Position numbers and translations under genes: made by a program. A stretch of DNA of 64,000 nt from an uncultured Lachnospiraceae bacterium (GTDB taxonomy: Bacteria; Bacillota; Clostridia; Lachnospirales; Lachnospiraceae). The notes beneath the pieces are model-generated. The model saw nothing but the letters and a program-made list of their open reading frames with translations, made no database searches and was not told where the DNA came from. The DNA lies in NCBI GenBank assembly GCA_900316855.1, contig ONEK01000001.1, positions 124,001 through 188,000 of the forward strand, in the 5' to 3' direction. How positions within the stretch are numbered: the first letter of the stretch is position 1; every line of letters begins with the position of its first letter. This document shows positions 22,166-36,499 of this stretch, piece by piece.

Positions 22166-22382
22166 ACGCATCGCTTCGCCGCAGAGCGGCTCTCGCGATA
22201 GAACAGATACACGGGAAGATATATGTAAGAACACGCATCGCTTCGCCGCAGAGCGGCTCTCGCGATGCTCCAAACACTCAGAAAACGCGTGGCTTGCGCC
22301 GCGCTTTTTTCTGAGTGTTTGGCGGGGCCCAAGGTCAAAAGGCATTTCGTGCAAGCACGAAGCCTTTTGTACTTTGGTCCCC
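22166..22382 (-). repeat. Intergenic multi-hairpin element B (between convergent mocR and tetR)
   Basis: A perfect 34-bp direct repeat (22166-22199 and 22233-22266) encodes hairpin H1: arms ATCGC/GCGAT and GCCGC/GCGGC around a purine-rich internal loop. H2 (22270-22322) has 12-bp arms CCAAACACTCAG/CTGAGTGTTTGG and an inner stem whose loop is GCAA on the minus strand. H3 (22324-22382) has AAAAGGC/GCCTTTT and TTCGTG/CACGAA closing CAAG, which is G(CUUG)C on the minus strand. The loop types favour a minus-strand RNA, possibly the 3' end of the tetR transcript. The same order of hairpins occurs in element C. Confidence 0.8.
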
Positions 22383-22388
22383 TGGTTC

Positions 22389-22994
22389 TTACAGGTTTGC
22401 AGCGAGGTGTCTGAGGATTTTGAGGTAGCCGGCGATTTTGTCGCGGTAGCGGGGAATGGCATTGCTGCGGTCGATGAGGGTTTCACGCATGACCTCGAGC
22501 TTGATGTAGCGGATGATCTCCGTGATCTTCGAGATGTCGTTGATGCGCAGGTAGGACGCAGTGTCTGTGCCGGCGAGCATGTCAGCGTAGTAATCGGCGA
22601 CAGTACGGCTCTGCTGCTCGATGCTGTCGAGACCTTCCTGGTCCTCCTCGAGGCGCACGGATTCCAGAAACAGGAACAGGAAGGGGTAGGTCTCCATCAG
22701 ATGGGACTCCGTTTCGAGAATCTGGTCCTGCAGGTCGAAGTAATCGATAGCGGTATTGCGGATTTCCGAGTTGATTTCCAGTGTGGTATAGCGGGTGATA
22801 TAGTCGTACAGAAAGGCATAATAGCCTGATTTGTTGACGAAATAATGAAAAAGCAGGCCCTTGGAGATCCTGGCCTCCCTGACGATTTCATCCGTGCTGG
22901 CGTGACGATATCCGTTCAGGGCGAATATGCGCAGGCCGGCATTAATCATCCTGTCCTGCTTCTCTTTTTTCAGATCGAAGAATTTCTCGTTCAT
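22389..22994 (-). CDS. TetR-family transcriptional regulator
   Basis: A 201-aa repressor: N-terminal helix-turn-helix (INAGLRIFALNGYRHASTDEIVREARISKGLLFHYFVNK, split here as residues about 16-55) and an alpha-helical ligand domain. The ATG at 22994 (MNEKFFDLKKEKQD) follows GAGGAT; the longer frame upstream crosses the promoter region. It is divergent from the small anchored protein gene at 23185, its most likely target besides itself. The ligand is unknown. Confidence 0.88.
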   Translation of the reverse strand: MNEKFFDLKKEKQDRMINAGLRIFALNGYRHASTDEIVREARISKGLLFHYFVNKSGYYAFLYDYITRYTTLEINSEIRNTAIDYFDLQDQILETESHLMETYPFLFLFLESVRLEEDQEGLDSIEQQSRTVADYYADMLAGTDTASYLRINDISKITEIIRYIKLEVMRETLIDRSNAIPRYRDKIAGYLKILRHLAANL

Positions 22995-23006
22995 GTCATC
23001 CTCATG

Positions 23007-23019
23007 GACCAAACTGGTC
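23007..23019. promoter_or_regulatory. Small palindrome before tetR, candidate autoregulatory operator
   Basis: GACCA-AAC-TGGTC lies 12 bp upstream of the tetR start codon. TetR proteins often repress themselves at such palindromes. The match is short, so this is only a candidate. Confidence 0.35.
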
Positions 23020-23184
23020 AAAACTCTGCTATCACAATAGCACAAACGCCTGATCGTTACAATAAAAAAATTGGACGCAAATGCCTGATTTTGCTTTATT
23101 TTTGGGCCTTTGCATAGTATGATGTAACCAGTATTCAGGTCAAAAACACTAAATGTTGTTATCACTGTTTTTGGAGGACACAAG

Positions 23185-23724
23185 ATGGGTGGATTTGGAA
23201 AATTTCTTCTGGGTTCTGCTGTAATCGGTGCTGTTGCTGCCGGCGTTTATTATGTTCTGGACCAGAACAAACGTGAGCCGGAAGACGAGATGGAAGATGA
23301 ATATGAGAACGAGACCGGTGAGCCCGGGGATGGGAGCTACACTTCACTGAAGGATGCGGCAGCCCGTGCCTACACCACCATCCGTGAGACGACGGACGAG
23401 ACGATTTCCAAAGTGAAGGAGACCGTTTCGGAAAAGGGACCGGACGTGATGAGCGTCATGGGTGAGACCGCGAAGGAGGTTCGCGATACGGTCGGAGCCG
23501 CTGCCGGCAGGGTGAAGGACATCCTGAAGGATTCCGACAAGGGCTATACGGACGTTTCCACGCCGGAGGGAGAGCCTGCAGAGGAGTCATCTGCGGAAGC
23601 TTCCGGTGAGAAGGAAGAGAAGCCGGAGCCCGATCCGGCGGAGAACCTGGCGGAGGATCCCGCGGTCAGGGAGAAGGCGGATCAGGTCGAAGAGTTCTTC
23701 GATGACAACGAGCCGGAAGCATAA
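23185..23724 (+). CDS. YtxH-like membrane-anchored acidic protein
   Basis: A 179-aa protein with a Gly/Ala-rich N-terminal helix (GKFLLGSAVIGAVAAGVYYV) and a long charged region with amphipathic repeats of the type KVKETVSEKGPDVMSVMGET, ending in an acidic tail. The layout matches YtxH-like proteins tied to general stress, but similarity is weak. GGAGG precedes the ATG. A TATGAT (23118-23123) could be its -10 element, with a poor -35. It may be controlled by the divergent TetR protein. Confidence 0.65.
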   Translation: MGGFGKFLLGSAVIGAVAAGVYYVLDQNKREPEDEMEDEYENETGEPGDGSYTSLKDAAARAYTTIRETTDETISKVKETVSEKGPDVMSVMGETAKEVRDTVGAAAGRVKDILKDSDKGYTDVSTPEGEPAEESSAEASGEKEEKPEPDPAENLAEDPAVREKADQVEEFFDDNEPEA

Positions 23725-23786
23725 AGCTCCGTCGGTGCGGATGCGCCGGATACGGAAAACGGCGGAGGCGCATATCAGATAATAAC

Positions 23787-23829
23787 AAGCCACCAGAGAG
23801 GGCCGGAGGGTCTGTCTCCTGTGGCTTTT
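23787..23829 (+). promoter_or_regulatory. Hairpin in the uraA leader, terminator or possible PyrR-type attenuator
   Basis: AAGCCAC (23787-23793) pairs with GTGGCTT (23821-23827) and is followed by TTATTAT. The 5' side of the loop contains CCAGAGAGG, which matches the core of the PyrR-binding loop known from Bacillus pyr leaders (CCNGNGAGG); the bases on either side do not match well. A similar CCAGAGAGGGCC string occurs before potA near 1483, which weakens the case. Confidence 0.35.
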
Positions 23830-23863
23830 ATTATGATAGGGAATTGCGAGGGAGGAAAAAGTC

Positions 23864-25267
23864 ATGAGCAAATCAAAAGTTACCATTGGCGACCATCCGA
23901 TTTATGATGCAAAAACACTGGGAGCGCCGCGGGTTGCGGTCCTGGCATTCCAGCACGTGTTCGCCATGTTCGGCGCAACCGTCCTGGTGCCGATCCTGAC
24001 CGGGCTGTCCGTATCGACGACACTCCTGTGGGCAGGACTCGGGACGCTGCTGTTTCACCTGATTTCGAAGAGGAAGGTACCGGCGTTTCTGGGCTCTTCG
24101 TTTGCGTTTCTCGCGGGTTATGCCGCCATCGCTCCGAACGGGGAGCCGGATCTGCTGCGCTACGCGTGCTTCGGCGTTGCCTGCGCAGGTCTGTTGTATC
24201 TGGTGCTGGCTGCGCTGTTCCGTGCCTTTGGTGCCAATAAGGTCATGAAATATTTCCCGCCGGTTGTGACGGGACCGATTATCATCGCCATCGGACTGAA
24301 CCTGTCGTCATCCGCCATCGCCAACAGCGAGACAAACTGGTTTGTTGCGCTCGTAGCCATTGCGGTCGTCATCATCTGCAATATCTGGGGCAGGGGCATG
24401 GTCAAGATTGTGCCGATTCTCATCGGCGTCATCGCCTCGTATCTGACCGCAGCCTGCATGGGGCTCATTGATTTCACGCCTGTGAAGGAGGCAGCCTGGA
24501 TCGGCATTCCGGTCCAGTGGGACCGCACAGTGTTCTCGATTTTTACAGAGGGAGCTGATACCGGCCTTCTGATCACATCCGCCATCACGATTATTCCGAT
24601 TGCCTTTGCGACCATGATGGAACACATCGGTGATATTTCGGCTATTTCGTCCACGGTAGGCCGCAACTTCATCAAGGATCCCGGACTTCACAGGACGCTG
24701 ACCGGAGACGGCCTTGCGACAACGCTCGCATCACTGTTCGGAGCCCCCGCCAACACGACGTACGGCGAAAATACCGGTGTTCTGACGCTGACGAAGGTTT
24801 ACGATCCCATGGTTATCCGCTGGGCAGCCTTTATCGCGGTTGTTCTGTCGTTCTGTCCGAAATTCGCGGCAATCATCGAGGTGATGCCGGCGGCGACCAT
24901 CGGCGGCATTTCGCTGATCCTGTACGGCATGATCTCCGCCGTCGGTGTCCGCAATGTCGTGGAGACCAGGGTTGATTTTTCCAGGAGCCGCAACGTCCTG
25001 ATCGCTGCGCTGATCCTCGTCCTGTCGATCGGCATCAATTACAGTGCGGCGGGCGCCGTTTCGTTCCAGGTGGGCGCCGTGACCATTTCCCTGTCCGGTC
25101 TTGCAGTCGGATCGCTCGCGGGTATCATCCTGAACGCGGTACTGCCCGGAAGGGATTATAAGTTCGAGAATGATACGCCGGTTGACACCGGTGTGGACCT
25201 GTCCAATTCCAACAGCGAGAATCTCGCGGACGAGGCAAGGAAAAACAGGGAAGGGGAGAAAGCGTAA
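23864..25267 (+). CDS. uraA: Uracil permease (NCS2 family)
   Basis: Proton-coupled uracil importer of 467 aa with about 12-14 hydrophobic helices. The family signature is plain: LFGAPANTTYGENTGVLTLTKVYDP, with the two half-helix segments and the conserved glutamate region MMEHIGDISAIS. The N-terminal QHVFAMFGATVLVPILTGL is typical of UraA/PyrP. GGGAGG precedes the ATG. The hairpin upstream may regulate it. Confidence 0.93.
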   Translation: MSKSKVTIGDHPIYDAKTLGAPRVAVLAFQHVFAMFGATVLVPILTGLSVSTTLLWAGLGTLLFHLISKRKVPAFLGSSFAFLAGYAAIAPNGEPDLLRYACFGVACAGLLYLVLAALFRAFGANKVMKYFPPVVTGPIIIAIGLNLSSSAIANSETNWFVALVAIAVVIICNIWGRGMVKIVPILIGVIASYLTAACMGLIDFTPVKEAAWIGIPVQWDRTVFSIFTEGADTGLLITSAITIIPIAFATMMEHIGDISAISSTVGRNFIKDPGLHRTLTGDGLATTLASLFGAPANTTYGENTGVLTLTKVYDPMVIRWAAFIAVVLSFCPKFAAIIEVMPAATIGGISLILYGMISAVGVRNVVETRVDFSRSRNVLIAALILVLSIGINYSAAGAVSFQVGAVTISLSGLAVGSLAGIILNAVLPGRDYKFENDTPVDTGVDLSNSNSENLADEARKNREGEKA

Positions 25268-25272
25268 GTTCA

Positions 25273-26337
25273 ATGAAAATCGTTTTCATGATGAAAAGAG
25301 CAGGGGCAGCCTGCCTGGCACTGCTTGCAGGGATCGGGCTGTTCCTTGCCTGCCCGGGGCAGGCAATACAGGTACAGGCAGCGGCAAAGCCGGCCGTCGT
25401 GGTTCTGGATCCCGGACACGGAGGAGGTGCCAGCGAGGACCTGGGAGCCATTAAGGCCCCCTATGTGGAAAAGGCCATGACGATGTATGTATCGCTCCTT
25501 ACGAAGGCAGAGCTGGAGCAATACAGCAATGTGAAGGTCTTTCTCACCCGGACGGATGATTATTACGTCTCCCTTGCGCAGCGTGCGGAGTATGCCAGAA
25601 GTGTCGGAGCGGATCTGTTCGTCAGCCAGCACTTCAATATGAGCAGCGGGCAGAAATCCGGCGCGGAAGTGTATGTTTCCGTCGATCCCGTCATGCAGCA
25701 GCAGGGAGGCTCCCTTGCACAGCTGGTACTGCAGCAGCTGAACGGGCAGGGACTTCCCGTTCGCGGGATTTATGCAAGGAGCGGTCTCCACGGGGATTAC
25801 TACGGTGTTATCCGCAGATCCACCTCCTACAGTATTCCGTCTGTCATCATTGAGCATTGCTACATGGACAATGCCAATGACAGGGCATGGCTGTCCGATC
25901 CGAACTGCTACGCAAAGCTGGCGCATGCGGATGCGACGGCAATCGCCCAGTATCTGCATTTGAAGAGTCCGTCACTGGGCCAGGATTTCACCAATACGGC
26001 AAGACCCGGCTATACGGTTATTCCGATGAACGGGAGCGGGACCATCGGGGCAGCGGCAGCCGCGGGCGGTCCGCAGATCTCCAACATCGGACAGGTCATC
26101 GCCTACGGAAACGGCAGGGCGCAGATCACGATGTACTGCGTCGATACCACCTATGGAATTTCACAGTTCTGCTATTCCACGGACGGAGGGGCAACCTGGT
26201 CCGCACCTGTTTCGTATGGCAATTCCAATGCCGTGTGGGTGACGGATATCACCGCTTCGCGGGGGCAGCAGGTCGTTATCAAAGCCTATAACAGTAAGGG
26301 AGAATCCAAAATCAGCAATACCGTCACGGTGAAATGA
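25273..26337 (+). CDS. Secreted N-acetylmuramoyl-L-alanine amidase (Amidase_3)
   Basis: A zinc hydrolase that cuts the bond between MurNAc and the stem peptide. It has a signal peptide (about residues 1-37), then the amidase domain with zinc ligands H49 (DPGHGG), E66 (VEKAMT) and H120 (VSQHFN), and the catalytic glutamate E194 (IIEHCYMDN). Where CwlD-like enzymes read SLHAN this one has SQHFN. The C-terminal 85 residues form a beta-rich Ig-like region (QFCYSTDGGATWSAP), probably for binding. The ATG at 25273 has only a distant Shine-Dalgarno. Confidence 0.88.
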   Translation: MKIVFMMKRAGAACLALLAGIGLFLACPGQAIQVQAAAKPAVVVLDPGHGGGASEDLGAIKAPYVEKAMTMYVSLLTKAELEQYSNVKVFLTRTDDYYVSLAQRAEYARSVGADLFVSQHFNMSSGQKSGAEVYVSVDPVMQQQGGSLAQLVLQQLNGQGLPVRGIYARSGLHGDYYGVIRRSTSYSIPSVIIEHCYMDNANDRAWLSDPNCYAKLAHADATAIAQYLHLKSPSLGQDFTNTARPGYTVIPMNGSGTIGAAAAAGGPQISNIGQVIAYGNGRAQITMYCVDTTYGISQFCYSTDGGATWSAPVSYGNSNAVWVTDITASRGQQVVIKAYNSKGESKISNTVTVK

Positions 26338-26363
26338 CCTGTGACAGGCTGGATGAGGGCATC

Positions 26364-29300
26364 ATGTCAGAGAAAATAAACCGGCAGGGGATGGTGCGGT
26401 TCTGCTTCGGCGCTTCCGGCGCAGGCAAGAGCCGCAGACTGATGAACGAAGTGATCCGGGGCGCGGAAGACGCCCTGGGTCACTTTACTGATTGCGGGAA
26501 TCCGGAAGGACTCCCGATGTACCTGTATGTTGTGCCGGAGCAGTTCACGCTGGAGACCCAGAAGGACCTGGTGCTGTCATCCGGAAACCAGGGGATCCTG
26601 AACATTGACGTGCTGTCGTTCGGCAGGCTGTCACACCGGATTTTCGAGGAGCTCGGTGCGGACAGCAGGGCTGTGCTGGATGATCTCGGCAAGAGCCTGG
26701 TTCTGCGCCGGGCGGCACAGGGTGTGGAGGACCAGCTGACCGTTCTTAAGGGACGGCTCGACCGCCTCAACATGATTTCGGAGGTCAAGTCCTCCATTTC
26801 GGAGTTCATGCAGTACGACCTTTCCGTGGACGATGTCCGGGAGCTGTCCGCGTATGCGGCATCCCATGGGCAGAAAGCGCTGGCGATGCAGCTCTCCGAC
26901 CTTGCCCTGCTCTATGAGGCCTTCCTTCAGTACAAGAAGGATTCCTTCCTCACCGGAGAGGAGACGCTGGACCTTCTCGCGGAGGCCATTCCCTCCTCCG
27001 CGCTGGTGAAGAGGAGTGTCATTGTCTTCGATGGTTTCACCGGCTTCACGCCTGTCCAGTACAGGGTGCTGGAGCAGCTCATGCGCTGCGCGAGGGAGGT
27101 CATCTTCTCCCTGACGATCGCGGAGGATGGAGGCCCTTCGCCTGCCCTGACCATGGAACAGGGAGTTCCGGCGGATCCCCGGGACCTGTTCTACCTGTCC
27201 CGCAAAACCCTGAAGGACCTTCTGCGGCTTGCGGACGAGGCAGGGGCGGCACACGGTGAGGATCTTTACTGCGGCAGCGCCGGTACCGTGAACGGAAATC
27301 CGCCGCAGGCAGGCAGTGCCAGTGCTGCGGCCTGCCATGTCCCGTACCGGTTCCGGGGCCGGCCTGCGCTCGCGCACCTGGAGCGCCATCTGTTCCGCTA
27401 TCCCGCGGTCCCGTTCACTCCTGCACAGGGGAGCGCCGGGGAGAGCCGGACGGATGCCGCAGATGCGATCCGTCTGATCGCCGCATCGGATCCGGAGCAG
27501 GAAGTGCGGCAGACCATGATCGACCTGAAGAAGGCAGTGATGCAGGGAACTGCCTACCGTGAGATCGGTATTGTGTGCGGAGACCTTTCCGGGTATGAGG
27601 ACCTGATCCGCAGACTTGCGGAGGTTTACGAGGTGCCGGTTTACATTGATACGACGCGGAATGTCCTGCACAATCCGCTGACGGAGATGATCCGCGCCGC
27701 CCTGACGATCGCGGCGGGAGACTGGTCCTATGAAGCCGTATTCCGTTTCCTGCGAAGCGGGATGACGCCCCTTACTGATGCAGAGATCGACCGGCTCGAG
27801 AACTACTGCCTCAAGCACGGCATCCGTACGCGGAAGCGCTGGGAAACGGCGGCGGACGAGGACGTGGAGCCGGCAAGAGAGCGATTTCTTGCCTGTATCG
27901 CCCCGCTCACGGCCAAAACGTCCGGAACCGCCGCGGAGCGCACCCGTGCGCTGCACACGTTCCTTACGGCAGTCGGGGCGGGAGAAAGGTGTCAGGCCTT
28001 CGCGGAGCAGTCTGCCGCTTCGGGAGACCCGGTTCACGAAAAGGAGTACAGCCAGATTTATGCCGCCATCCTGCATCTTATGGATCAGGTGTATGAGCTG
28101 TGCGGGGAGGAGAAGATTTCCGCCGGGGATTATCAGGAGCTGATGGAAGCCGGCTTTGGCGAAATCCGGCTCGGAACGCTTCCCCAGCAGGCTGACCGTG
28201 TGCTTGCAGGGGATATGGAGAGGACGCGGCTGCAGCAGGTGAGGATTCTGTTCTTCCTCGGCGCCAACGACGGCAATATTCCGGGGAATACCGCCCGCGG
28301 CGGCCTCATTGCGGACCCGGACCGGGAATTTCTCAAACGCAGCGGCAGGGAGCTGTCCCCGACTCCCCGGGAACAGATGTATATCCAGCACCTGTACCTG
28401 TACCTCAACATGACGAAGCCGACAGAGAGACTCTGTGTCAGCTGGAGCGAGAGGGGAGCGGACGGAGCGTCGCTGCGTCCGTCCTATCTCGTCTCGCAGC
28501 TGCGCGGGCTGTTTCCGGGCGCCGCAGTGGAACACCCGTCCGCGGAACCCATGCGAAACCAGCTCGTATCCGGCAGGGACGCGTTCCGTTTCCTTGCAGA
28601 GTCCCTGCGCAGGTACGCCGACGGGAGGATGGAATCTGATCCGGAGGGGCAGGATTTCCCTGCCCTGTACACCGCTCTGTCTGATCCGGAGGGCGGAGAC
28701 CCGGAAAGAGTGCAGAAGCTCGCCCGCGCGGCGTTCCTTCGTTATAAGCCGCAGCCGCTTGAGAGGGCAGCGGCAGACGCCCTGTACCGGAACAGGCTCC
28801 GGGGCTCCGTCAGCAGCATGGAGACGGCGGCAAAATGCCTCCTCAGAGCCTTCCTGCAATACGGCCTTTGCCTGAAGGAGCGGGAGGTTTATTCCATTGC
28901 CTCCGCAGATACCGGCAGCATCCTGCACGGTGCTATTGAACGATTTTCCGAAAAGCTGCTGCAGCAGGGACTTGCCTGGGACAGCTTCAGTGAGGAGCAG
29001 GGTGAAAGACTAGCCGCGCAGTCCCTGAAGGAAGCGGCGGCAGACTACCACAATGAGCTCATCTACGACACGGCGCGCGGTGTGGGTATGCTGCACCGCA
29101 TGGAGCGGGTTCTGTACCGGACCGTGGATACGCTGCAGTATCAGCTGCGGCAGGGCGTCTTCGTCCCGACGCGGTTTGAGGTCCCGTTCGGGGAGCATAA
29201 CGAATGGGAGATGGACCTCGGAGAGGGCAGGATTCTGTCTCTTAGCGGGAAGATAGACCGGGTGGATCTCGCCCGGCACGCAGACAGGGAATACATCAAG

Positions 29301-29891
29301 ATCGTGGATTATAAATCAGGCAGTCAGGACCTGGAGCCGGAGGATATCCGGAAGGGACTGCGCCTGCAGCTGATGGTCTACATGGAGGCCGAAATCGCGC
29401 GCGAGAGGCTGCAGAACCCCGGGAAGCAGATCCTGCCCGCAGCCATGCTGTATTACCGCTTCGATGATCCGATTCTGGCGGAAAGTGTGCGGTGGGAGGC
29501 AGGAAAGGCGGATCCGGAAAGCCGGAAGGAGGCATCCGTCAGCGAAATCCGGAAACACCTCTGCCCTGCAGGCATGGTCAGCTCCGACGCGGACACGCTT
29601 TCGCTTCTTGCGGGAGATCCCGGGAACGGAGCAAAGGTGATTCCGGTTACGTTTAACAGGGACGGATCACCCAGGAAGTCAGAGCACCTGTTCACACAGG
29701 AGGAATATGAGAGCCTTGCGGCAAAGGTCCGCGCTCTTCTCGCGAATCTTGGCGGCAGCCAGCTGGGAGGCAGCATCGACGCAAACCCTGTGAAAACGGG
29801 AAACCGGAAAACGGCGTGCACGTACTGCCCGATGAAGGAGTCGTGCGGATACGATCCGAAGACACCGGGCTACCGCTTCCGGGATTCGTAA
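26364..29891 (+). CDS. addB: ATP-dependent nuclease subunit B
   Basis: Partner of AddA in the RecBCD-like complex that processes double-strand breaks. The 1175-aa chain shows Walker A GASGAGKS (16-23), a C-terminal nuclease domain with YIKIVDYKSGSQD, and four cysteines that can hold a 4Fe-4S cluster: one at about 825 (TAAKCLLRAF) and three at C1152, C1155, C1161 near the end (CTYCPMKESC). The ATG at 26364, behind GGATGAGGG, is preferred to one at 26334 that merely overlaps the amidase stop. addA starts 30 nt later. Confidence 0.94.
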   Translation: MSEKINRQGMVRFCFGASGAGKSRRLMNEVIRGAEDALGHFTDCGNPEGLPMYLYVVPEQFTLETQKDLVLSSGNQGILNIDVLSFGRLSHRIFEELGADSRAVLDDLGKSLVLRRAAQGVEDQLTVLKGRLDRLNMISEVKSSISEFMQYDLSVDDVRELSAYAASHGQKALAMQLSDLALLYEAFLQYKKDSFLTGEETLDLLAEAIPSSALVKRSVIVFDGFTGFTPVQYRVLEQLMRCAREVIFSLTIAEDGGPSPALTMEQGVPADPRDLFYLSRKTLKDLLRLADEAGAAHGEDLYCGSAGTVNGNPPQAGSASAAACHVPYRFRGRPALAHLERHLFRYPAVPFTPAQGSAGESRTDAADAIRLIAASDPEQEVRQTMIDLKKAVMQGTAYREIGIVCGDLSGYEDLIRRLAEVYEVPVYIDTTRNVLHNPLTEMIRAALTIAAGDWSYEAVFRFLRSGMTPLTDAEIDRLENYCLKHGIRTRKRWETAADEDVEPARERFLACIAPLTAKTSGTAAERTRALHTFLTAVGAGERCQAFAEQSAASGDPVHEKEYSQIYAAILHLMDQVYELCGEEKISAGDYQELMEAGFGEIRLGTLPQQADRVLAGDMERTRLQQVRILFFLGANDGNIPGNTARGGLIADPDREFLKRSGRELSPTPREQMYIQHLYLYLNMTKPTERLCVSWSERGADGASLRPSYLVSQLRGLFPGAAVEHPSAEPMRNQLVSGRDAFRFLAESLRRYADGRMESDPEGQDFPALYTALSDPEGGDPERVQKLARAAFLRYKPQPLERAAADALYRNRLRGSVSSMETAAKCLLRAFLQYGLCLKEREVYSIASADTGSILHGAIERFSEKLLQQGLAWDSFSEEQGERLAAQSLKEAAADYHNELIYDTARGVGMLHRMERVLYRTVDTLQYQLRQGVFVPTRFEVPFGEHNEWEMDLGEGRILSLSGKIDRVDLARHADREYIKIVDYKSGSQDLEPEDIRKGLRLQLMVYMEAEIARERLQNPGKQILPAAMLYYRFDDPILAESVRWEAGKADPESRKEASVSEIRKHLCPAGMVSSDADTLSLLAGDPGNGAKVIPVTFNRDGSPRKSEHLFTQEEYESLAAKVRALLANLGGSQLGGSIDANPVKTGNRKTACTYCPMKESCGYDPKTPGYRFRDS

Positions 29892-29921
29892 AGTACAGGC
29901 AGAAAGGGGAGGAGCACCTTC

Positions 29922-32900
29922 ATGGGTATCACATTCACACCCGCACAGGAAAAGGTATTACAGAGCCGCGGCCACAACGTGCTTGTCTCGGCTGCCGCAG
30001 GCAGCGGCAAGACAGCGGTCCTCGTGGAGCGCATCATCCGGATGATCACGGAGGGGGACCATCCGCTTGACATCGACCATCTGCTCGTTGTCACGTTTAC
30101 GCGCGCCGCCGCTGCCGAGATGCGGGAGAGGATCGGCAGGGCCATTTCCGCACGTCTTGTCCAGGATCCCGAAAACAGGCACCTGCAGGAGCAGGAGACG
30201 CTGCTGCATAACGCGAAGATCACTACTATCGACAGCTTCTGCACCTACCTTCTGCGGAACAATTTCGCGGATATCGGTCTCGATCCGGGCTTTCGCCAGA
30301 TGGATGAGACGGAGAGCAGCCTCCTCATGCATGACTGCATGGAAACCTATCTGGAGAGCTGCTATGAAAAAGGAGGGGACGAGTTTCAGGCGTGCCTTGA
30401 CACGTTCTGCCCCGGTGTGGACGACAAAGGACTCGAGGACCTGATCTTCCGGCTGTTCAACGTCTCGAATTCCCATCCCTTCCAGCGCGAGTGGCTCCTC
30501 GGGCGCAGGCAGGATTATGAAGCCAGGGATGAGGAAGAGCTGCTGCGCAAGCCCTGGATGCAGGCTCTGATCCGGGACACGCTCCGGACGTTCCGGGAGC
30601 TGTATGAGACCTATGACACCATGCTCCGGATCTGCGAGCTTCCCGGCGGTCCGTACCCCCTTTCGGAGTTTCTGCGCACGGAGCGGGACAGTCTGTTCGC
30701 ACCGTTCCTGTCATACGCGGGAGGATCAGACGAAACGGGCGGTGCTGCCGGCGAGCCGGAAGATGGCAGAGACCCTTTCACTCCGGGCGAGCCTTCGGAG
30801 GACCTCGAACGCTGCCGGCAGGTTCTGGGCTATCACTTCGACAGAATCCCTGCGATCCGGGCAGCGAAATACCCGGACATTGACCCTGAGCAGAAGAACC
30901 GGACCGCGGGTCTTCGGGACCGGGTGAAGGACGCCGTCGGGGAGCTGAAAAAACAGGGGCTGGACCTGCCTCTGCCGGAATCGGTCCGCAGAATGCAGCT
31001 TGCGGCGGGACCGCTCCGCACACTCATCGACCTCACACTCGGATTCATTGATGCCTTTGACGCGCTGAAAAAGGAGCGCAACTGTATCGATTTCGCCGAC
31101 CTTGAGCGCGACGCGCTGCAGATCCTTCTGGAGCGCAGGCCGGACGGAACCCTTGCTGAGCGAAGGGCAGCGGCGGAGTACCGGCAGTATTTCGATGAGA
31201 TCCTGATCGACGAATACCAGGACTCCAACGAGGTGCAGGAGCTGCTCCTTGGCACGATTGCCGGAGAGGCACAGGGTGTCCGCAAGCGGTTCATGGTGGG
31301 CGATGTCAAGCAGTCCATCTACCGGTTCCGGAATGCAAGACCCGAAATTTTCGTGGAAAAATATGATACCTACCGCGCGGACGATCCGGAGGAGGAACGG
31401 ATCGACCTTGACCAGAATTTCCGCTCCAGGAAGGAGGTTCTGGATGTTGTCAACGCGCTGTTCGGGCGCCTGATGCGAAAGGAAATCGGCGGCATTGATT
31501 ACGATGAAGCTGCGTCCCTCAAGCCGGGCGCCGTATTCCCGATGCCGGAGGAAGGGAGCAGCCCTTACACTCCGGAGCTCCTTGTGGTGGACGGAAGTAC
31601 ACAGGACCGCGAAGAGGCGGAAAAGTCTTCCGGGGAAAAGGACACGGATCAAAAGTCTTCCGGAAGGAAGGGATCCGGCGAACCGGAGCCTGACGATGGG
31701 GACGATGCCGCGAACCTGACAAACAGGAAAAAGCAGGCACTCGCCGTTGCGGACAGGATCCGCGGCCTTGTGGGAAAGCTTCCCGTCCGCGATGAGAAGA
31801 CGGGGACACTGCGCCCTGCAAAATACAGCGATATTGTGATCCTGGTCCGCTCGGCCGCCGCATGGAATGCGCCGATCCGTGAGATCTTCGACAGGCAGGG
31901 TATTCCTGTCTATGTCGAAGAGCGGACCGGATATTTCGCGGCGGAGGAAATCCGCCAGGTGCTGCAGTATCTGAGGGTCATGGACAACCCCCTGCAGGAT
32001 ATTCCTCTTTACGGGGCGCTCAGGGGATATTTCGGCGGCTTTTCGGAGAGCGAAATCGCCCTGATCCGCAGCACGGACAGACAATGCCTTCTGTATGACA
32101 ACCTGCAGGCATTCGCCGGAAGGGAGGAGTCAGCAGGCACACAGAGGCCCCTCGCGGAGCACTGCAGGAGCTTCCTCGGAACGCTTGCGGAGCGGAGGAA
32201 GAAGGCCAAACAGATGCCGGTGCACCGGATCGTCGACGCGCTGATCTTTGAAACCGGCTACAGCGATTATGTCAGCGCGCTTCCCGCCGGGGAACAGCGA
32301 AGGGCCAATCTGCACTCTCTTGAGGTCAAGGCCAAGGCGTTCGAGCAGACCGCTTACACGGGGCTGTTCCAGTTCCTGCGCTATATCGACAGCATGCATG
32401 ATTACGAGGTCGATTACGGGGAAGAGAACGTACTGGACGAAAAAGCCGATGTCGTGCGGGTCCTGACCATTCACAAGAGCAAGGGACTCGAATTCCCCGT
32501 CTGTATCGTGGCGGGGCTCGAGACAAGATTTGCCTTCCGCGGCAGGGATACCGGTGCCGCCCTGATCGCAGATCCGGACCTGGGGCTCGGCGTGGATACG
32601 TTTGATCCGGAGCTGCGCCTTAAGACCGGCAATATCCGCAAAAGCGCGGTGGCTAAGAAAATCCGCAGGGATGCGATGGGTGAGGAGCTGCGCGTTTTGT
32701 ATGTCGCCCTGACACGGGCACGGGAGAAGCTGATTCTCACCGGCTTCAGTCCGAACGCAGAGACAAAAATCCTGTCAGCGCAGGGCTATGTCTGCGCACC
32801 GGACACCTCCCGGGCGCAGGAGAAATGCTCTCTGCCCGCCTCTGCCATCGGGAATGCGGTGAATTATCTCGATCTCATCCTGAAGAGCAATGTGCTGACC

Positions 32901-33782
32901 CCGCAGGTGATCCGGATCCGTGACCTGCAGGTGGCAGAACAGGAGGATCTCGAGCGTCTGGGGAAACGCCTTGCGGCACTGCAGAAGCCGGCGGGGGGCT
33001 CTGCGGCGGCGGAGGCAGCAGAGCTGCTGAAGCGGTTCCGATACCGCTATCCGCACGAGAACCTTGCCGGACTGTATACGAAGACAACGGTTACGGAGCT
33101 GAAGCGTGCTTCCATGGAGGAACTGCCCGGGGAGACGGGAGAAGGCGCCGATACGCTGTATCCCGCAGCTCCTGCCCTTCCGGAGCCGAAGTTCCTTGCA
33201 CGGGATGCGGGAGGTGACGGACCGGTCCGTCTCTCCGGTGCGGAGCGCGGCACCGCGGTTCACCGCGGCTGTGAGCTGCTCGATTTCAGGAGCATGGCGG
33301 GTCCCGGCCGGGCAACGGCTAAGGAGATCGAAGCATTCGTGGAGCGGCAGATCACGGAAGGGAGGATTCCCGCGGAGTACCGCAGTGTGCTGACGCCCGG
33401 GATCTTCCTGCCGCTCCTTGGCTCAGGCCTTGCGGTCCGCATGGCGGCGGCACAGGAAAAGGGGTGGCTCCTCAGGGAGCAGCCCTTCGTACTGGGACTT
33501 CCTGCCAGCGATTTAAAGAGCAGCTTTCCGGAGAATGAAACGATCCTGGTGCAGGGTATTATTGACGCGTTCTTTTTGGAACAGGATCCGGAAACGGGAG
33601 CAAAACATCTTGTGATCGTGGATTACAAGACGGATGCCGTGAAGACACCCGGGGAGCTTCTGGAGCGCTACCGCACACAGCTGGAGTATTACGCGCGGGC
33701 GCTGGAGGGGATGCTGCACCTGCCTGTTGCGGAGAAGATTCTGTATTCGTTCCGCCTGAGGCAGGCGGTGGAAGTTGACTGA
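29922..33782 (+). CDS. addA: ATP-dependent helicase/nuclease subunit A
   Basis: UvrD-type helicase and nuclease of 1286 aa. Walker A SAAAGSGKT (23-31), helicase motif II DEILIDEYQDSNEVQ, motif III MVGDVKQSIYRFRNA, motif V VVRVLTIHKSKGLEFP, motif VI LYVALTRAREKL, and the C-terminal RecB-like nuclease motif IVDYKTD (about 1232-1238). An internal Ser/Glu/Asp/Gly-rich stretch (about 562-600) contains a short duplicated DNA segment (AAAAGTCTTCCGG), so it is probably a variable linker. It is coupled to addB and followed after 14 nt by a CYTH gene. Confidence 0.95.
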   Translation: MGITFTPAQEKVLQSRGHNVLVSAAAGSGKTAVLVERIIRMITEGDHPLDIDHLLVVTFTRAAAAEMRERIGRAISARLVQDPENRHLQEQETLLHNAKITTIDSFCTYLLRNNFADIGLDPGFRQMDETESSLLMHDCMETYLESCYEKGGDEFQACLDTFCPGVDDKGLEDLIFRLFNVSNSHPFQREWLLGRRQDYEARDEEELLRKPWMQALIRDTLRTFRELYETYDTMLRICELPGGPYPLSEFLRTERDSLFAPFLSYAGGSDETGGAAGEPEDGRDPFTPGEPSEDLERCRQVLGYHFDRIPAIRAAKYPDIDPEQKNRTAGLRDRVKDAVGELKKQGLDLPLPESVRRMQLAAGPLRTLIDLTLGFIDAFDALKKERNCIDFADLERDALQILLERRPDGTLAERRAAAEYRQYFDEILIDEYQDSNEVQELLLGTIAGEAQGVRKRFMVGDVKQSIYRFRNARPEIFVEKYDTYRADDPEEERIDLDQNFRSRKEVLDVVNALFGRLMRKEIGGIDYDEAASLKPGAVFPMPEEGSSPYTPELLVVDGSTQDREEAEKSSGEKDTDQKSSGRKGSGEPEPDDGDDAANLTNRKKQALAVADRIRGLVGKLPVRDEKTGTLRPAKYSDIVILVRSAAAWNAPIREIFDRQGIPVYVEERTGYFAAEEIRQVLQYLRVMDNPLQDIPLYGALRGYFGGFSESEIALIRSTDRQCLLYDNLQAFAGREESAGTQRPLAEHCRSFLGTLAERRKKAKQMPVHRIVDALIFETGYSDYVSALPAGEQRRANLHSLEVKAKAFEQTAYTGLFQFLRYIDSMHDYEVDYGEENVLDEKADVVRVLTIHKSKGLEFPVCIVAGLETRFAFRGRDTGAALIADPDLGLGVDTFDPELRLKTGNIRKSAVAKKIRRDAMGEELRVLYVALTRAREKLILTGFSPNAETKILSAQGYVCAPDTSRAQEKCSLPASAIGNAVNYLDLILKSNVLTPQVIRIRDLQVAEQEDLERLGKRLAALQKPAGGSAAAEAAELLKRFRYRYPHENLAGLYTKTTVTELKRASMEELPGETGEGADTLYPAAPALPEPKFLARDAGGDGPVRLSGAERGTAVHRGCELLDFRSMAGPGRATAKEIEAFVERQITEGRIPAEYRSVLTPGIFLPLLGSGLAVRMAAAQEKGWLLREQPFVLGLPASDLKSSFPENETILVQGIIDAFFLEQDPETGAKHLVIVDYKTDAVKTPGELLERYRTQLEYYARALEGMLHLPVAEKILYSFRLRQAVEVD

Positions 33783-33796
33783 GGAGGACGTTTGAG

Positions 33797-34324
33797 ATGG
33801 AGATTGAGCGCAAATGGATGGTGGAGGGGTGGCCCGGTGTCAGCCTCCCCCTTGTGAAGGAGGAGGAGATGCGGCAGGGCTATGTGTCCGTCCGCCCGAC
33901 CGTTCGGATCCGGGAGGAGAATGTCATCCGCAGCAATGCCCCGGACATTCCCGTCGGGGACCATTACGTCCTGTGCTTTAAATCGCAGGGGACCCTGGCA
34001 CGCAGGGAAATTGAAATGGAGCTTTGCGGGGAGCAGTTTGCACAGCTCGAGGATCTCATCGGCCTGCCGCTCATCCCGAAGCTGCGCAGGACGTATGCGC
34101 TGCCGGACGGGCTGTACCTGGAGGTGAATCACGTCGATGAGGGACTGCCGACGGAATTCTGGTACGCGGAGGTGGAATATCCGGCCGTGGAGGCTGCCAT
34201 AGCCTGGGACCCGGCGTCCGCGGGCCTTGCGGACTATCTGACCCGGGAAGTTACGTCGGAGCCGGGGCAGTCCATGGGGGCTTACTGGGAGCAGACAAGG
34301 CTGCAGAACGGGAGCCGCGGATGA
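33797..34324 (+). CDS. CYTH-domain protein (triphosphate tunnel family)
   Basis: A 175-aa protein that begins MEIERKWMV, the EIERKF-type signature of the family, with further tunnel residues VRIREE, CFKSQGTLARREIEMEL and KLRRTYAL. Family members hydrolyse inorganic triphosphate or bind nucleotides; the substrate here is unknown. GGAGG precedes the ATG, and the gene closes the addB-addA cluster. Confidence 0.85.
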   Translation: MEIERKWMVEGWPGVSLPLVKEEEMRQGYVSVRPTVRIREENVIRSNAPDIPVGDHYVLCFKSQGTLARREIEMELCGEQFAQLEDLIGLPLIPKLRRTYALPDGLYLEVNHVDEGLPTEFWYAEVEYPAVEAAIAWDPASAGLADYLTREVTSEPGQSMGAYWEQTRLQNGSRG

Positions 34325-34333
34325 GCACGGATG

Positions 34334-34355
34334 GTATGTTTGTATACAAACATAC
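34334..34355. promoter_or_regulatory. 22-bp perfect palindrome abutting the amino-acid ABC promoter
   Basis: Arm GTATGTTTGTA (34334-34344) is followed directly by its exact reverse complement (34345-34355). The core TTGTATACAA resembles operators of FadR-subfamily GntR regulators. It ends at the base before the -35 hexamer. Confidence 0.75.
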
Positions 34356-34384
34356 TTGCAATTACAGATGCATGCGTTTATACT
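34356..34384 (+). promoter_or_regulatory. Predicted sigma-A promoter of the amino-acid ABC transporter
   Basis: TTGCAA (34356-34361) and TATACT (34379-34384) are separated by 17 nt. The expected leader to the ATG at 34488 is about 95 nt. Confidence 0.75.
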
Positions 34385-34487
34385 TTAGAGCGTTAAAGTG
34401 AAGCCCCGATGAGCAGGCCGTTCCGGGGGATTCCATATGGGATGGGATCCTGACCGGCTGCTGCCCGGGGATCACGAGGAGGAGAAC

Positions 34488-35375
34488 ATGAAAAAATATC
34501 TGGCACTGTTACTCTCAGGGGTAGTGGCAGCATCCCTTGCCGCCTGCGGAAGCTCCAATGCTTCCGATACGGCTGCAACAGCCGCTGCTGCAGCAACCAC
34601 CGCAGCAGAAGCCGCGACAGAGGCACCCGCTGCGGACGCTGCAGCACAGAGTGCTTCCGGTTCCGCCATCGACCTGAGTCAGGACAAATACGCCGGAGAC
34701 GGTGTACTCACAGTCGGAACGAACGCAACTTTCCCGCCCTTTGAGGAAGTCGGGGACGACGGCAAGCCCGCGGGCTTCGATATCGACCTCATGAATGCCA
34801 TCGGTGAGAAGCTGGGCGTGGAAGTCGAGTGGCAGGATCTTGAATTTGATTCCCTTGTCGCTTCCATCGGAACGAAGATCGACGCTGCTGCTTCCGGCAT
34901 GACGATCACGGAGGAGAGAAAGAAGGCAGTCAACTTCAGTGATCCTTATTATGACGCTACCCAGTGCGTTCTGCTGCCCACAGATTCCACTGCAGCAGCG
35001 ATCGATGACCTCAAGGAGCTGAAGATCGGAGTTCAGAGCGGCACGACCGGCGAGACGATTTCCCGTGAGTCCATCAGCGATGCCAATACCGTTGCTTACA
35101 ACGGCTTCAACCAGGCGGTCAATGATCTTGTAAACGGCAAGGTTGGAGCGGTTGTCATCGATACCGCTCCTGCCGCAGCCTTTCAGGCGCAGTATCCGGA
35201 CCAGCTCAAGGTAGTGGACGGGTCTGTTTTCGGCTTCGACGTCGAGCAGTACGGCATTGCACTTCCGAAGGACGATCAGGCTCTGACCGATGCCGTGAAT
35301 CAGGCCCTGCAGGAGCTGAAGGACGACGGAACCTATGACAAGCTGATCGCGCAGGATATTAATGCCGCTCAGTAA
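34488..35375 (+). CDS. Amino-acid ABC transporter, substrate-binding lipoprotein
   Basis: Family 3 solute-binding protein of 295 aa. Signal peptide and lipobox LAAC with the lipidated C20, an Ala/Thr-rich linker (about 25-60), then the binding domain (LTVGTNATFPPFEEVGDDGKPAGFDIDLM, split by family motifs GFDIDLM and SGMTITEERKKAVNFSDPYY). These motifs are those of polar amino-acid binders; the exact ligand cannot be read. The ATG at 34488 follows GAGGAGGAG. A terminator after it separates it from its permease, so the binding protein may be made in excess. Confidence 0.92.
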   Translation: MKKYLALLLSGVVAASLAACGSSNASDTAATAAAAATTAAEAATEAPAADAAAQSASGSAIDLSQDKYAGDGVLTVGTNATFPPFEEVGDDGKPAGFDIDLMNAIGEKLGVEVEWQDLEFDSLVASIGTKIDAAASGMTITEERKKAVNFSDPYYDATQCVLLPTDSTAAAIDDLKELKIGVQSGTTGETISRESISDANTVAYNGFNQAVNDLVNGKVGAVVIDTAPAAAFQAQYPDQLKVVDGSVFGFDVEQYGIALPKDDQALTDAVNQALQELKDDGTYDKLIAQDINAAQ

Positions 35376-35411
35376 ACCTTTGTCCGGCAGGTTCACAGTA
35401 TGCTGGTTTCC

Positions 35412-35448
35412 AAGGGATGGACTGATTCAGGTCCATCCCTTTTCCTTT
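35412..35448 (+). terminator. Terminator after the substrate-binding protein gene
   Basis: An 11-bp perfect stem (AAGGGATGGAC, 35412-35422, with 35431-35441) has an 8-nt loop, followed by TTCCTTT. Confidence 0.8.
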
Positions 35449-35515
35449 ACCGGAACCTGCGGCGGACACAGAAATTCATATGTCATTTCGAACCGATAAT
35501 CACTCTGGCAGCTTA

Positions 35516-35564
35516 ATCATGCTATGATCTGGGTGTTAAAGGTTCCAATTGATATAACATGACA
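35516..35564 (+). repeat. Left copy of a 49-bp direct repeat flanking element C
   Basis: It matches 35723-35771 at 43 of 49 positions by eye. Both copies begin TCATGCTATGAT, containing an extended -10 (TGCTATGAT), and end with ATGACAT. The 35376-35797 gap holds no credible gene; it consists of a terminator, these repeats and the hairpins between them. Confidence 0.8.
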
Positions 35565-35566
35565 TA

Positions 35567-35710
35567 CGAATTGCTTCGCAGCTTGGCTGCTTCCGCAATT
35601 CTGCAAACATCCGAAATCCGCGCACCGCTTCGCTTTGCGCTACTTTCGGATGTTTGGCGGGTCCCAAGTCCAAATCGCTATTCGAGCAAGCTCGAAAACG
35701 ATTTGGGACT
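35567..35710 (-). repeat. Intergenic multi-hairpin element C, homologous in structure to B
   Basis: H1 (35567-35600): arms ATTGC/GCAAT and GCAGC/GCTGC. H2 (35603-35655): 13-bp arms beginning CAAACATCCGAAA. H3 (35660-35710): CAAATCG/CGATTTG below TTCGAG/CTCGAA closing CAAG, i.e. G(CUUG)C on the minus strand. Order, stem lengths and internal loops match element B while many base pairs are replaced by other pairs. The bridging sequence TGTTTGGCGGG is shared. GTCCCAA next to AAGTCC allows two alternative pairings for H3. Confidence 0.8.
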
Positions 35711-35722
35711 TTTGACCCTTAT

Positions 35723-35771
35723 GTCATGCTATGATTTGGGTGTCAAAGGTTCCTGTTGAGATAAAATGACA
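35723..35771 (+). repeat. Right copy of the 49-bp direct repeat flanking element C
   Basis: The offset to the left copy is 207 bp. It contains TGCTATGAT, a possible extended -10 element, and ends 26 nt before the permease start, so it could supply that gene with a promoter. Confidence 0.8.
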
Positions 35772-35797
35772 TGCAGGCGCAGGCACAGGAGGATACT

Positions 35798-36499
35798 ATG
35801 GGAGAATGGTGGGCAGGTGTCCGGGGACAGTTCTATGACTCGTTTGTAGACGGCAGCCTCTGGATTCAGTATTTCAAGGGGCTGGGAGTCACAGTCGAGG
35901 TTTCGATCTTCGCAGCCCTGATCGGACTGGTGCTGGGCACTGTCATCGCACTGATGAACATGTCCCGCAGAAGGGACGGGAAGCGCAACGCGGCGTCCGT
36001 GATCGCAATGGTCTATATTGACGTCATCCGCGGCACGCCCTCCGTCATCCAGCTGCTGATCATGTGGTTCATCATCCTGAAGAGCTGCACGAACGGCGTT
36101 CTGGTATCCGTCCTCGCCTTCGGCATCAACTCCGGCGCCTATGTCGCCGAGATCATCCGGGGCGGCATACAGGCTGTCGATAACGGTCAGATGGAGGCGG
36201 GCCGCTCCCTGGGCCTGTCCAAGGTCCAGACCATGATCTACGTCGTACTGCCGCAGGCATTCAAAAACGCGTTTCCGTCCCTCCTCAATGAGTTCATCAC
36301 CCTGCTGAAGGAGACGGCAATTCTGGGTTATGTCGGGATGGCGGACCTGACCCGTGTCGCCAACCAGGTCTCCGCAAGGACGTACGAGCCGTTCATGCCG
36401 CTGCTGGGGGCTGCCGCGATCTACTTCGTCGTCATCAAGGTTCTGTCGATCCTGTTCGGCAGGCTGGAGCGCAGGATGAGAGAGGGAGACCAGCACTGA
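35798..36499 (+). CDS. Amino-acid ABC transporter permease
   Basis: A 233-aa His/Glu/Gln-type permease with about four to five helices, the N-terminal [20 protein letters not shown] and the docking loop [31 protein letters not shown] lies before the ATG at 35798, which is preferred to an ATG at 35771 inside the repeat. The ATPase gene follows after 19 nt. Confidence 0.93.

Follow-up and report, generated by a model that had tools for sequence, protein, structure and literature searches.

What kind of element carries the same three hairpins, in the same order and with compensatory changes in the stems, at two separate places of one genome? The question arises from a 64,000-nucleotide stretch of an uncultured Lachnospiraceae bacterium (assembly GCA_900316855.1, contig ONEK01000001.1, positions 124,001 to 188,000; C36:124001-188000 of the 2.69-Mb source genome, G000), hereafter the window, in which an initial annotation had listed two such loci, here called B and C, as a candidate new structured RNA family. 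Their hairpins and sequences are present where that annotation placed them. However, cmscan analysis against Rfam 15 assigns both loci to RF01699 (Clostridiales-1 RNA). They are the only 2 Rfam matches in the window, both full length and both on the minus strand: locus B (22391-22226) covers model positions 1-166 of 166 at 99.6 bits (E 2.6e-21), and locus C (35726-35560) scores 112.1 bits (E 1.1e-24), at a gathering cut-off of 48 bits. Both exceed that cut-off and display the closing stem and three ordered, covarying hairpins of the family. A match at twice the gathering score rules out a new structured RNA family, and the annotation had itself named such a match as fatal to its proposal. Judged by this match, B and C are copies of a catalogued family, and what is added here is the reading of RF01699 as the body of a miniature inverted-repeat transposable element (MITE). 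RF01699 was published as a candidate structured RNA of Clostridiales and the human gut with unknown function, and is marked as not cis-regulatory in a table of that paper (Weinberg et al., 2010; PMC2864571); its Rfam type is "Gene; sRNA" (small RNA). Loci B and C agree with that description in full-length model match, in strand, and in a closing stem (P1) with three hairpins, but the description is of a candidate structured RNA only, and not of a mobile element. No statement on mobility of RF01699 was found in the papers searched.

Taking the identity of the loci and the mobility of the family jointly, we consider it probable from the sequences compared that RF01699 makes up, at least largely, the body of a non-autonomous, MITE-type transposon of roughly 185-215 bp that is specific to Lachnospiraceae. 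Mobility is indicated by inverted repeats, by A+T-rich target duplications of ~6 bp, by a patchy and high copy number, and by filled and empty sites, the latter observed for the form at stop codons (at YchF and at B, see below). Many copies extend past the Rfam 3′ end by a tail of ~15-35 nt, the end of which mirrors the 5′ end (TGAT...GTCAAAAG). The terminal inverted repeats read TGAYATAAGGGTCAAAAGTA / TGATTAAGGTGTCAAAAGTA in G000, with TGACATAAGGGTCAAAAGTA at the 5′ end and TGATTAAGGTGTCAAAAGTA as the reversed tail end, and TGATACCAGGGTCAAAAG / GATGTTGGGGTCAAAAG in other genera; an autonomous partner would be expected to carry ends matching TGATnnnnGGGTCAAAAG. Direct repeats of at least 5 nt (5-8) flank 13 of 22 tailed copies in a first set (shuffled mean 0.86, maximum 5 in 2000). 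They recur at 16 of 26 tailed copies (shuffled mean 2.1, maximum 8 in 5000) in a second set from other genera, which was collected after the first and chosen by highest score, and is therefore enriched in young copies. These repeats are A+T-rich (89% A+T in the second set). In length, the units range from 183 to 214 bp, and one complete genome holds three exact 204-bp end pairs. Coding capacity is not apparent: the longest open reading frame (ORF) with an ATG start has a median of 39 and a maximum of 65 amino acids, and no frame is open in even half of 129 copies. Terminal inverted repeats, target-site duplications and a short unit without coding capacity of its own are what characterizes a MITE.

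The whole comparison comprises more than 100 copies. G000 displays 50 RF01699 matches at E <= 1e-3, 35 of them above the cut-off, so that the element is far from being limited to two copies. With at most 2 mismatches allowed, G000 holds 56 occurrences of the end sequence; a slightly longer version, allowing at most 1 mismatch, is found 37 times there and once in 60 other species of the genus, which points to a recent, lineage-specific expansion of this subfamily. In the genus, RF01699 is present in 31 of 61 genomes, with 0 to 28 copies in the 60 other species under filters stricter than those of the G000 count. Judged by PheS, Lachnospiraceae bacterium NK3A20 (91%) is the named relative nearest to G000. 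Of 250 genomes across Lachnospiraceae, about one for each genus, 134 carry RF01699 (113 above the cut-off); phylum-wide it appears in 2 of 199 genomes, both Lachnospiraceae. The description of a dispersed element of Lachnospiraceae is thereby borne out.

Locus C is read as a young mobile copy. The complete MITE-like unit of 201 bp (35526-35726; all features of both loci are on the minus strand) consists of the RF01699 body (35560-35726; supported by the 112.1-bit match, the alignment and a fold z-score of -9.8) and a 34-nt tail. The 5′ terminal inverted repeat TGACATAAGGGTCAAAAGT begins with the 5′ arm of P1, UGACAUA (35720-35726); P2 with a CUUG cap (35659-35718), P3 (35603-35658), P4 (35568-35601) and the 3′ arm of P1, UAUGUCA (35560-35566), follow in the predicted fold. 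The tail (35526-35559) ends in ...CCTTTAACACCCAGATC, the reverse complement of which, GATCTGGGTGTTAAAGG, mirrors the 5′ end. The unit is flanked by the target-site duplication ATAGCA at 35727-35732 and 35520-35525, which extends to 7 bp (CATAGCA) if 35733 and 35526, the last base of the tail, are included. By sequence reading, 35733-35766 is the relic tail of an older neighbouring copy, preceded by ATGTCA and with the same 34-nt layout as in C. Insertion of C beside this relic explains the similar sequences of ~50 nt on its two sides. The initial annotation had outlined the hairpins of both loci, but overlooked the tail of C, the terminal inverted repeats, the target-site duplications and the placement of B at a stop codon.

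The predicted fold is a four-way-junction-like layout, in which the three hairpins are closed by the terminal stem P1; the three-hairpin layout is therefore confirmed as far as it goes, but lacked this fourth helix. In Rfam order, the hairpins formerly numbered H3, H2 and H1 become P2, P3 and P4. Against dinucleotide shuffles, the fold of B reaches z-scores of -10.3 on the minus and -10.9 on the plus strand, and that of C -9.8 and -9.1, respectively. Both strands fold far better than shuffles, hence folding of single sequences does not decide on the strand. A covariance model of our own was weak (16 base pairs) because MAFFT misaligned P2; the Rfam model and direct arm-swap tests were used instead. 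In P1, sampled as 50 distinct arm pairs taken from G000 and from further species of its genus, 6.1 of 7 positions form Watson-Crick pairs between own arms and 2.8 between swapped arms (maximum 3.46 in 1000). The outer stem of P4 pairs at 6.07 of 7 positions versus 2.55 with swapped arms (maximum 3.66), and its inner stem at 4.45 of 5 versus 1.94 (maximum 2.66). The compensatory changes, which had been read from two loci, are thus genuine and exceed chance across copies.

The minus strand of the window had been taken as the folded RNA, and the orientation of the Rfam match agrees. In well-formed helices, G-U pairs outnumber A-C mismatches by 10:0 in P1 and 13:3 in P4, counts that ignore the shared descent of copies; this excess favours selection on the RNA sense strand, i.e. 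the minus strand of the window. The stems change in sequence around G/A-rich internal loops and a CUUG-type cap that are retained. The earlier view that the preserved object is an RNA and not just a DNA palindrome is supported in P1 and P4, but not in P2, where G-U is not in excess over A-C and no strand asymmetry is seen. P2 is hypervariable (arms 36% identical between copies), yet nearly perfectly Watson-Crick paired, and for these reasons its pairing may in part be maintained at the level of DNA.

A second form of the element lies at stop codons. Among first-set copies with an upstream gene on the same strand, 31 of 54 start between -9 and +7 relative to the stop codon of that gene, a range picked after the data were seen, whereas 0 of 27 lie that close to a stop codon on the opposite strand (Fisher 6.6e-8). 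At the YchF-Lgt junction, the site is filled in G000, G014 and G037 with the YchF protein end unchanged, and is empty of RF01699 in the nearest relatives (G029 and G004, YchF 91% identical) and in the other species read. The stop codon of PheS is followed by a copy in G000, Butyrivibrio sp. LB2008, B. hungatei XBD2006 and one metagenome-assembled genome, and most others are without one. Several stop-codon copies are apparently located within operons, e.g. between PheS and PheT. Gene names beyond those derived from Pfam were recognized by eye from translations. As a separate observation, the gap after the PheS stop holds other, non-RF01699 palindromes in several further Lachnospiraceae (L073, L080, L084, L087, L104 and L150); this position seems to be a hotspot at which elements of more than one family insert.

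Locus B (22226-22391; fold z-score -10.3 along with the match given above) is a tail-less representative of the stop-codon form. The first three bases of its P1 5′ arm, UAAGAAC (22385-22391), are the native stop codon of the upstream TetR-like gene (22389-23183, minus strand). P2 with the CUUG cap (22324-22382), P3 with a GCAA cap (22270-22322), P4 (22235-22268) and the 3′ arm of P1, GUUCUUA (22226-22232), complete the fold, and the pairing of P1 extends two bases outward into the end of the host gene (CTGTAA). The genes flanking B, TetR-like and GntR/aminotransferase, are convergent. G029 and G004 retain the end of the TetR-like gene at this site, with an ordinary terminator after its stop. 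By this comparison, B takes the position that an ordinary terminator would have between the convergent genes. Its P3 is terminator-like: in a search for the terminator pattern (a GC-rich hairpin before a U-tract), the apical part of P3 with T6 (22287-22304) resembles an intrinsic terminator on the plus strand. By sequence reading, a second, partial copy of P4 (22166-22202) lies by the stop codon of the convergent GntR/aminotransferase gene; as a partial third H1 copy of the window, it fits position 22166, at which the initial annotation had started the feature.

The extension of P1 seen at B recurs in the stop-codon form. Contiguous Watson-Crick pairs continue past the Rfam boundary into the host coding end by a mean of 2.84, versus 0.65 with swapped flanks (maximum 1.42 of 5000); leaving out TATG(A)-flanked copies, the values are 2.35 and 0.59 (maximum 1.62). 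In the three species with a filled YchF site, the 3′ arm complements the conserved bases GTGTAA of the host entirely or for the greater part, and the empty sites of the nearest relatives display no complement of GTGTAA downstream. Either insertion copies host bases in inverted orientation, or the far arm has adapted to a fixed coding sequence. One may speculate about a second entry route, very unlikely as a whole, by which a P1-bounded, tail-less unit would insert in sense orientation exactly at native stop codons, with several nucleotides of the host coding end copied inverted on the far side and the stop codon joining the closing stem. In contrast to the ordinary transposition of a MITE, such insertion would take its guidance from the end of translation or from the RNA itself.

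Based on this dataset, we hypothesize that a transposase, the existence of which we infer, acts in trans on the TGAT...GTCAAAAG ends and mobilizes the unit. Once inserted within a transcript, a copy would fold as P1-P4 RNA, and the body would be under selection for RNA structure. Sense copies directly at stop codons would be kept longest, either acting or harmless as structures in 3′ untranslated regions or between cistrons. There, like REP or Correia/NEMIS repeats, they may protect, process or end the upstream message. This role at mRNA ends, taken alone, is suggested by orientation, by place and by the NEMIS/REP analogy, and we regard it as a tentative proposal, possible but somewhat doubtful. 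Correia/NEMIS, ERIC/RU-1 and RUP elements resemble RF01699 in size (~100-200 bp), in being non-coding and intergenic, in inverted repeats and target duplications, and in transcripts with long stem-loops, and an effect of NEMIS RNA on neighbouring mRNAs by way of RNase III has been proposed (PMC2229807). RF01699 differs from them in host family, in an A+T target of ~6 bp instead of TA, in a multi-helix RNA with compensatory change across genera, and in the stop codon inside the closing stem. REP/BIME are likewise high-copy palindromic repeats in non-coding DNA, for which roles in mRNA stabilization and termination have been proposed (PMC3733652). However, REP are palindromes of 20-40 bp marked by a GTAG or CGTC tag, and a multi-helix unit of ~200 bp with other, paired ends and direct target duplications does not qualify as a REP element.

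The Rfam type of RF01699 would rather suggest a family of trans-acting sRNA genes, each copy with its own promoter and amplified for a cellular target of the RNA. Of 63 non-stop copies of the first set, 26 indeed have a sense -10-like box within the preceding 18 nt (shuffled mean 13.4, maximum 21), as opposed to only 3 antisense boxes after those copies; the copy at C15:136375 is preceded by TTGACA-N17-TAAAAT, and the asymmetry of G-U over A-C also speaks for this reading. However, half of the related genomes lack RF01699, about a third of the copies start at a stop codon and leave no room for a promoter, and the direct repeats mark the flanks as insertion targets. The -10-like rule, strong in the first set, is not above shuffles of the same A+T-rich flanks in the second (17; mean 13.3, maximum 22), and is taken as a by-product of A+T-rich targets. 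We therefore consider sRNA genes quite unlikely. Equally improbable in our view is a mere DNA palindrome, the pairing of which is kept by cruciform or template-switch correction at replication and not by selection on RNA. The behaviour of P2 and the similar folding of both strands would agree with it, but a strand-symmetric process would not yield helices such as P1 and P4 that tolerate G-U and hardly A-C, and the internal loops and cap are kept amid changing stems.

An element kept for ending transcription, as a terminator or 3′-end module, is unlikely. In its favour are the P3 pattern of B on the plus strand and the position of B between convergent genes, at which relatives show an ordinary terminator. 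However, termination by the copies apparently within operons (PheS-PheT) would silence the next gene, and no terminator-like site was found within C. Some copies, in turn, lie 30-100 nt upstream of a start codon on the same strand, as would a cis-regulatory leader (riboswitch or attenuator) for neighbouring genes. No shared function of neighbouring genes is seen, orientation and position vary, and the copies are mobile, which renders such a leader extremely unlikely.

Several points weigh against the MITE reading itself. No transposase between matching ends was recognized in G000, five relatives and three complete genomes, although drafts may lack one. A pattern search for enclosing end pairs of transposon size in the relatives and the three complete genomes yielded only pairs of 0.2 kb. 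The copies analysed are not independent, since tandem copies and sister species are among them. Besides the late choice of the stop-codon range, the orientation contrast is only suggestive in the second set (9 of 18 versus 2 of 13, Fisher 0.066); a weaker contrast is expected there if top-scoring copies are young mobile ones. Finally, stop-codon copies are without recognizable tail or direct duplication, and may arise otherwise than the MITE form. In G000, ends 1.3-1.5 kb apart at C6:3988-5472 and C36:234137-235451 were considered as autonomous transposons and rejected, as their ORFs are without recognizable transposase on reading. The former (L213) has inverted ends 1.49 kb apart around an ORF of 355 amino acids with a Cys-rich C-terminal region.

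If a catalogued RNA of unknown function is a family-wide mobile element, the reading of its matches in genome annotation changes, and covariation among paralogous copies alone is no proof of a fixed RNA gene. About half of the Lachnospiraceae genera sampled carry the element, which makes it frequent in a major family of the gut. Its copies exactly at stop codons, some apparently in operons such as pheS-pheT, may affect many ordinary genes in their expression. In the stop-codon form, codons of the host recurrently pair into the element, a pattern that lends itself to direct testing.

Tandem arrays of whole or partial copies are found in G000 at C34:54705-55490, where a P3-P4 unit of ~120-127 nt is repeated, at C16:65456-65923 and at C31:90372-90688. 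Some contigs start or stop inside or beside copies (G000:C32:3-169, C42:45390-45546, C26:1-168, and several contigs of G058, with the tail near position 120), hence true copy numbers are probably above the counts. In the genus, a second subfamily (L265-L322) has P1 flanked by GTATGA/TCATAC and another 3′ extension (ATGTTTGCGGGCA..CATGGCCACA), and one of its members, L314, displays one possible duplication of 8 bp. Next to locus C, an ORF of the window starts at 35771 within relic element sequence; the likelier start of this permease gene is the ATG at 35798 after AGGAGG (region 35771-35800).

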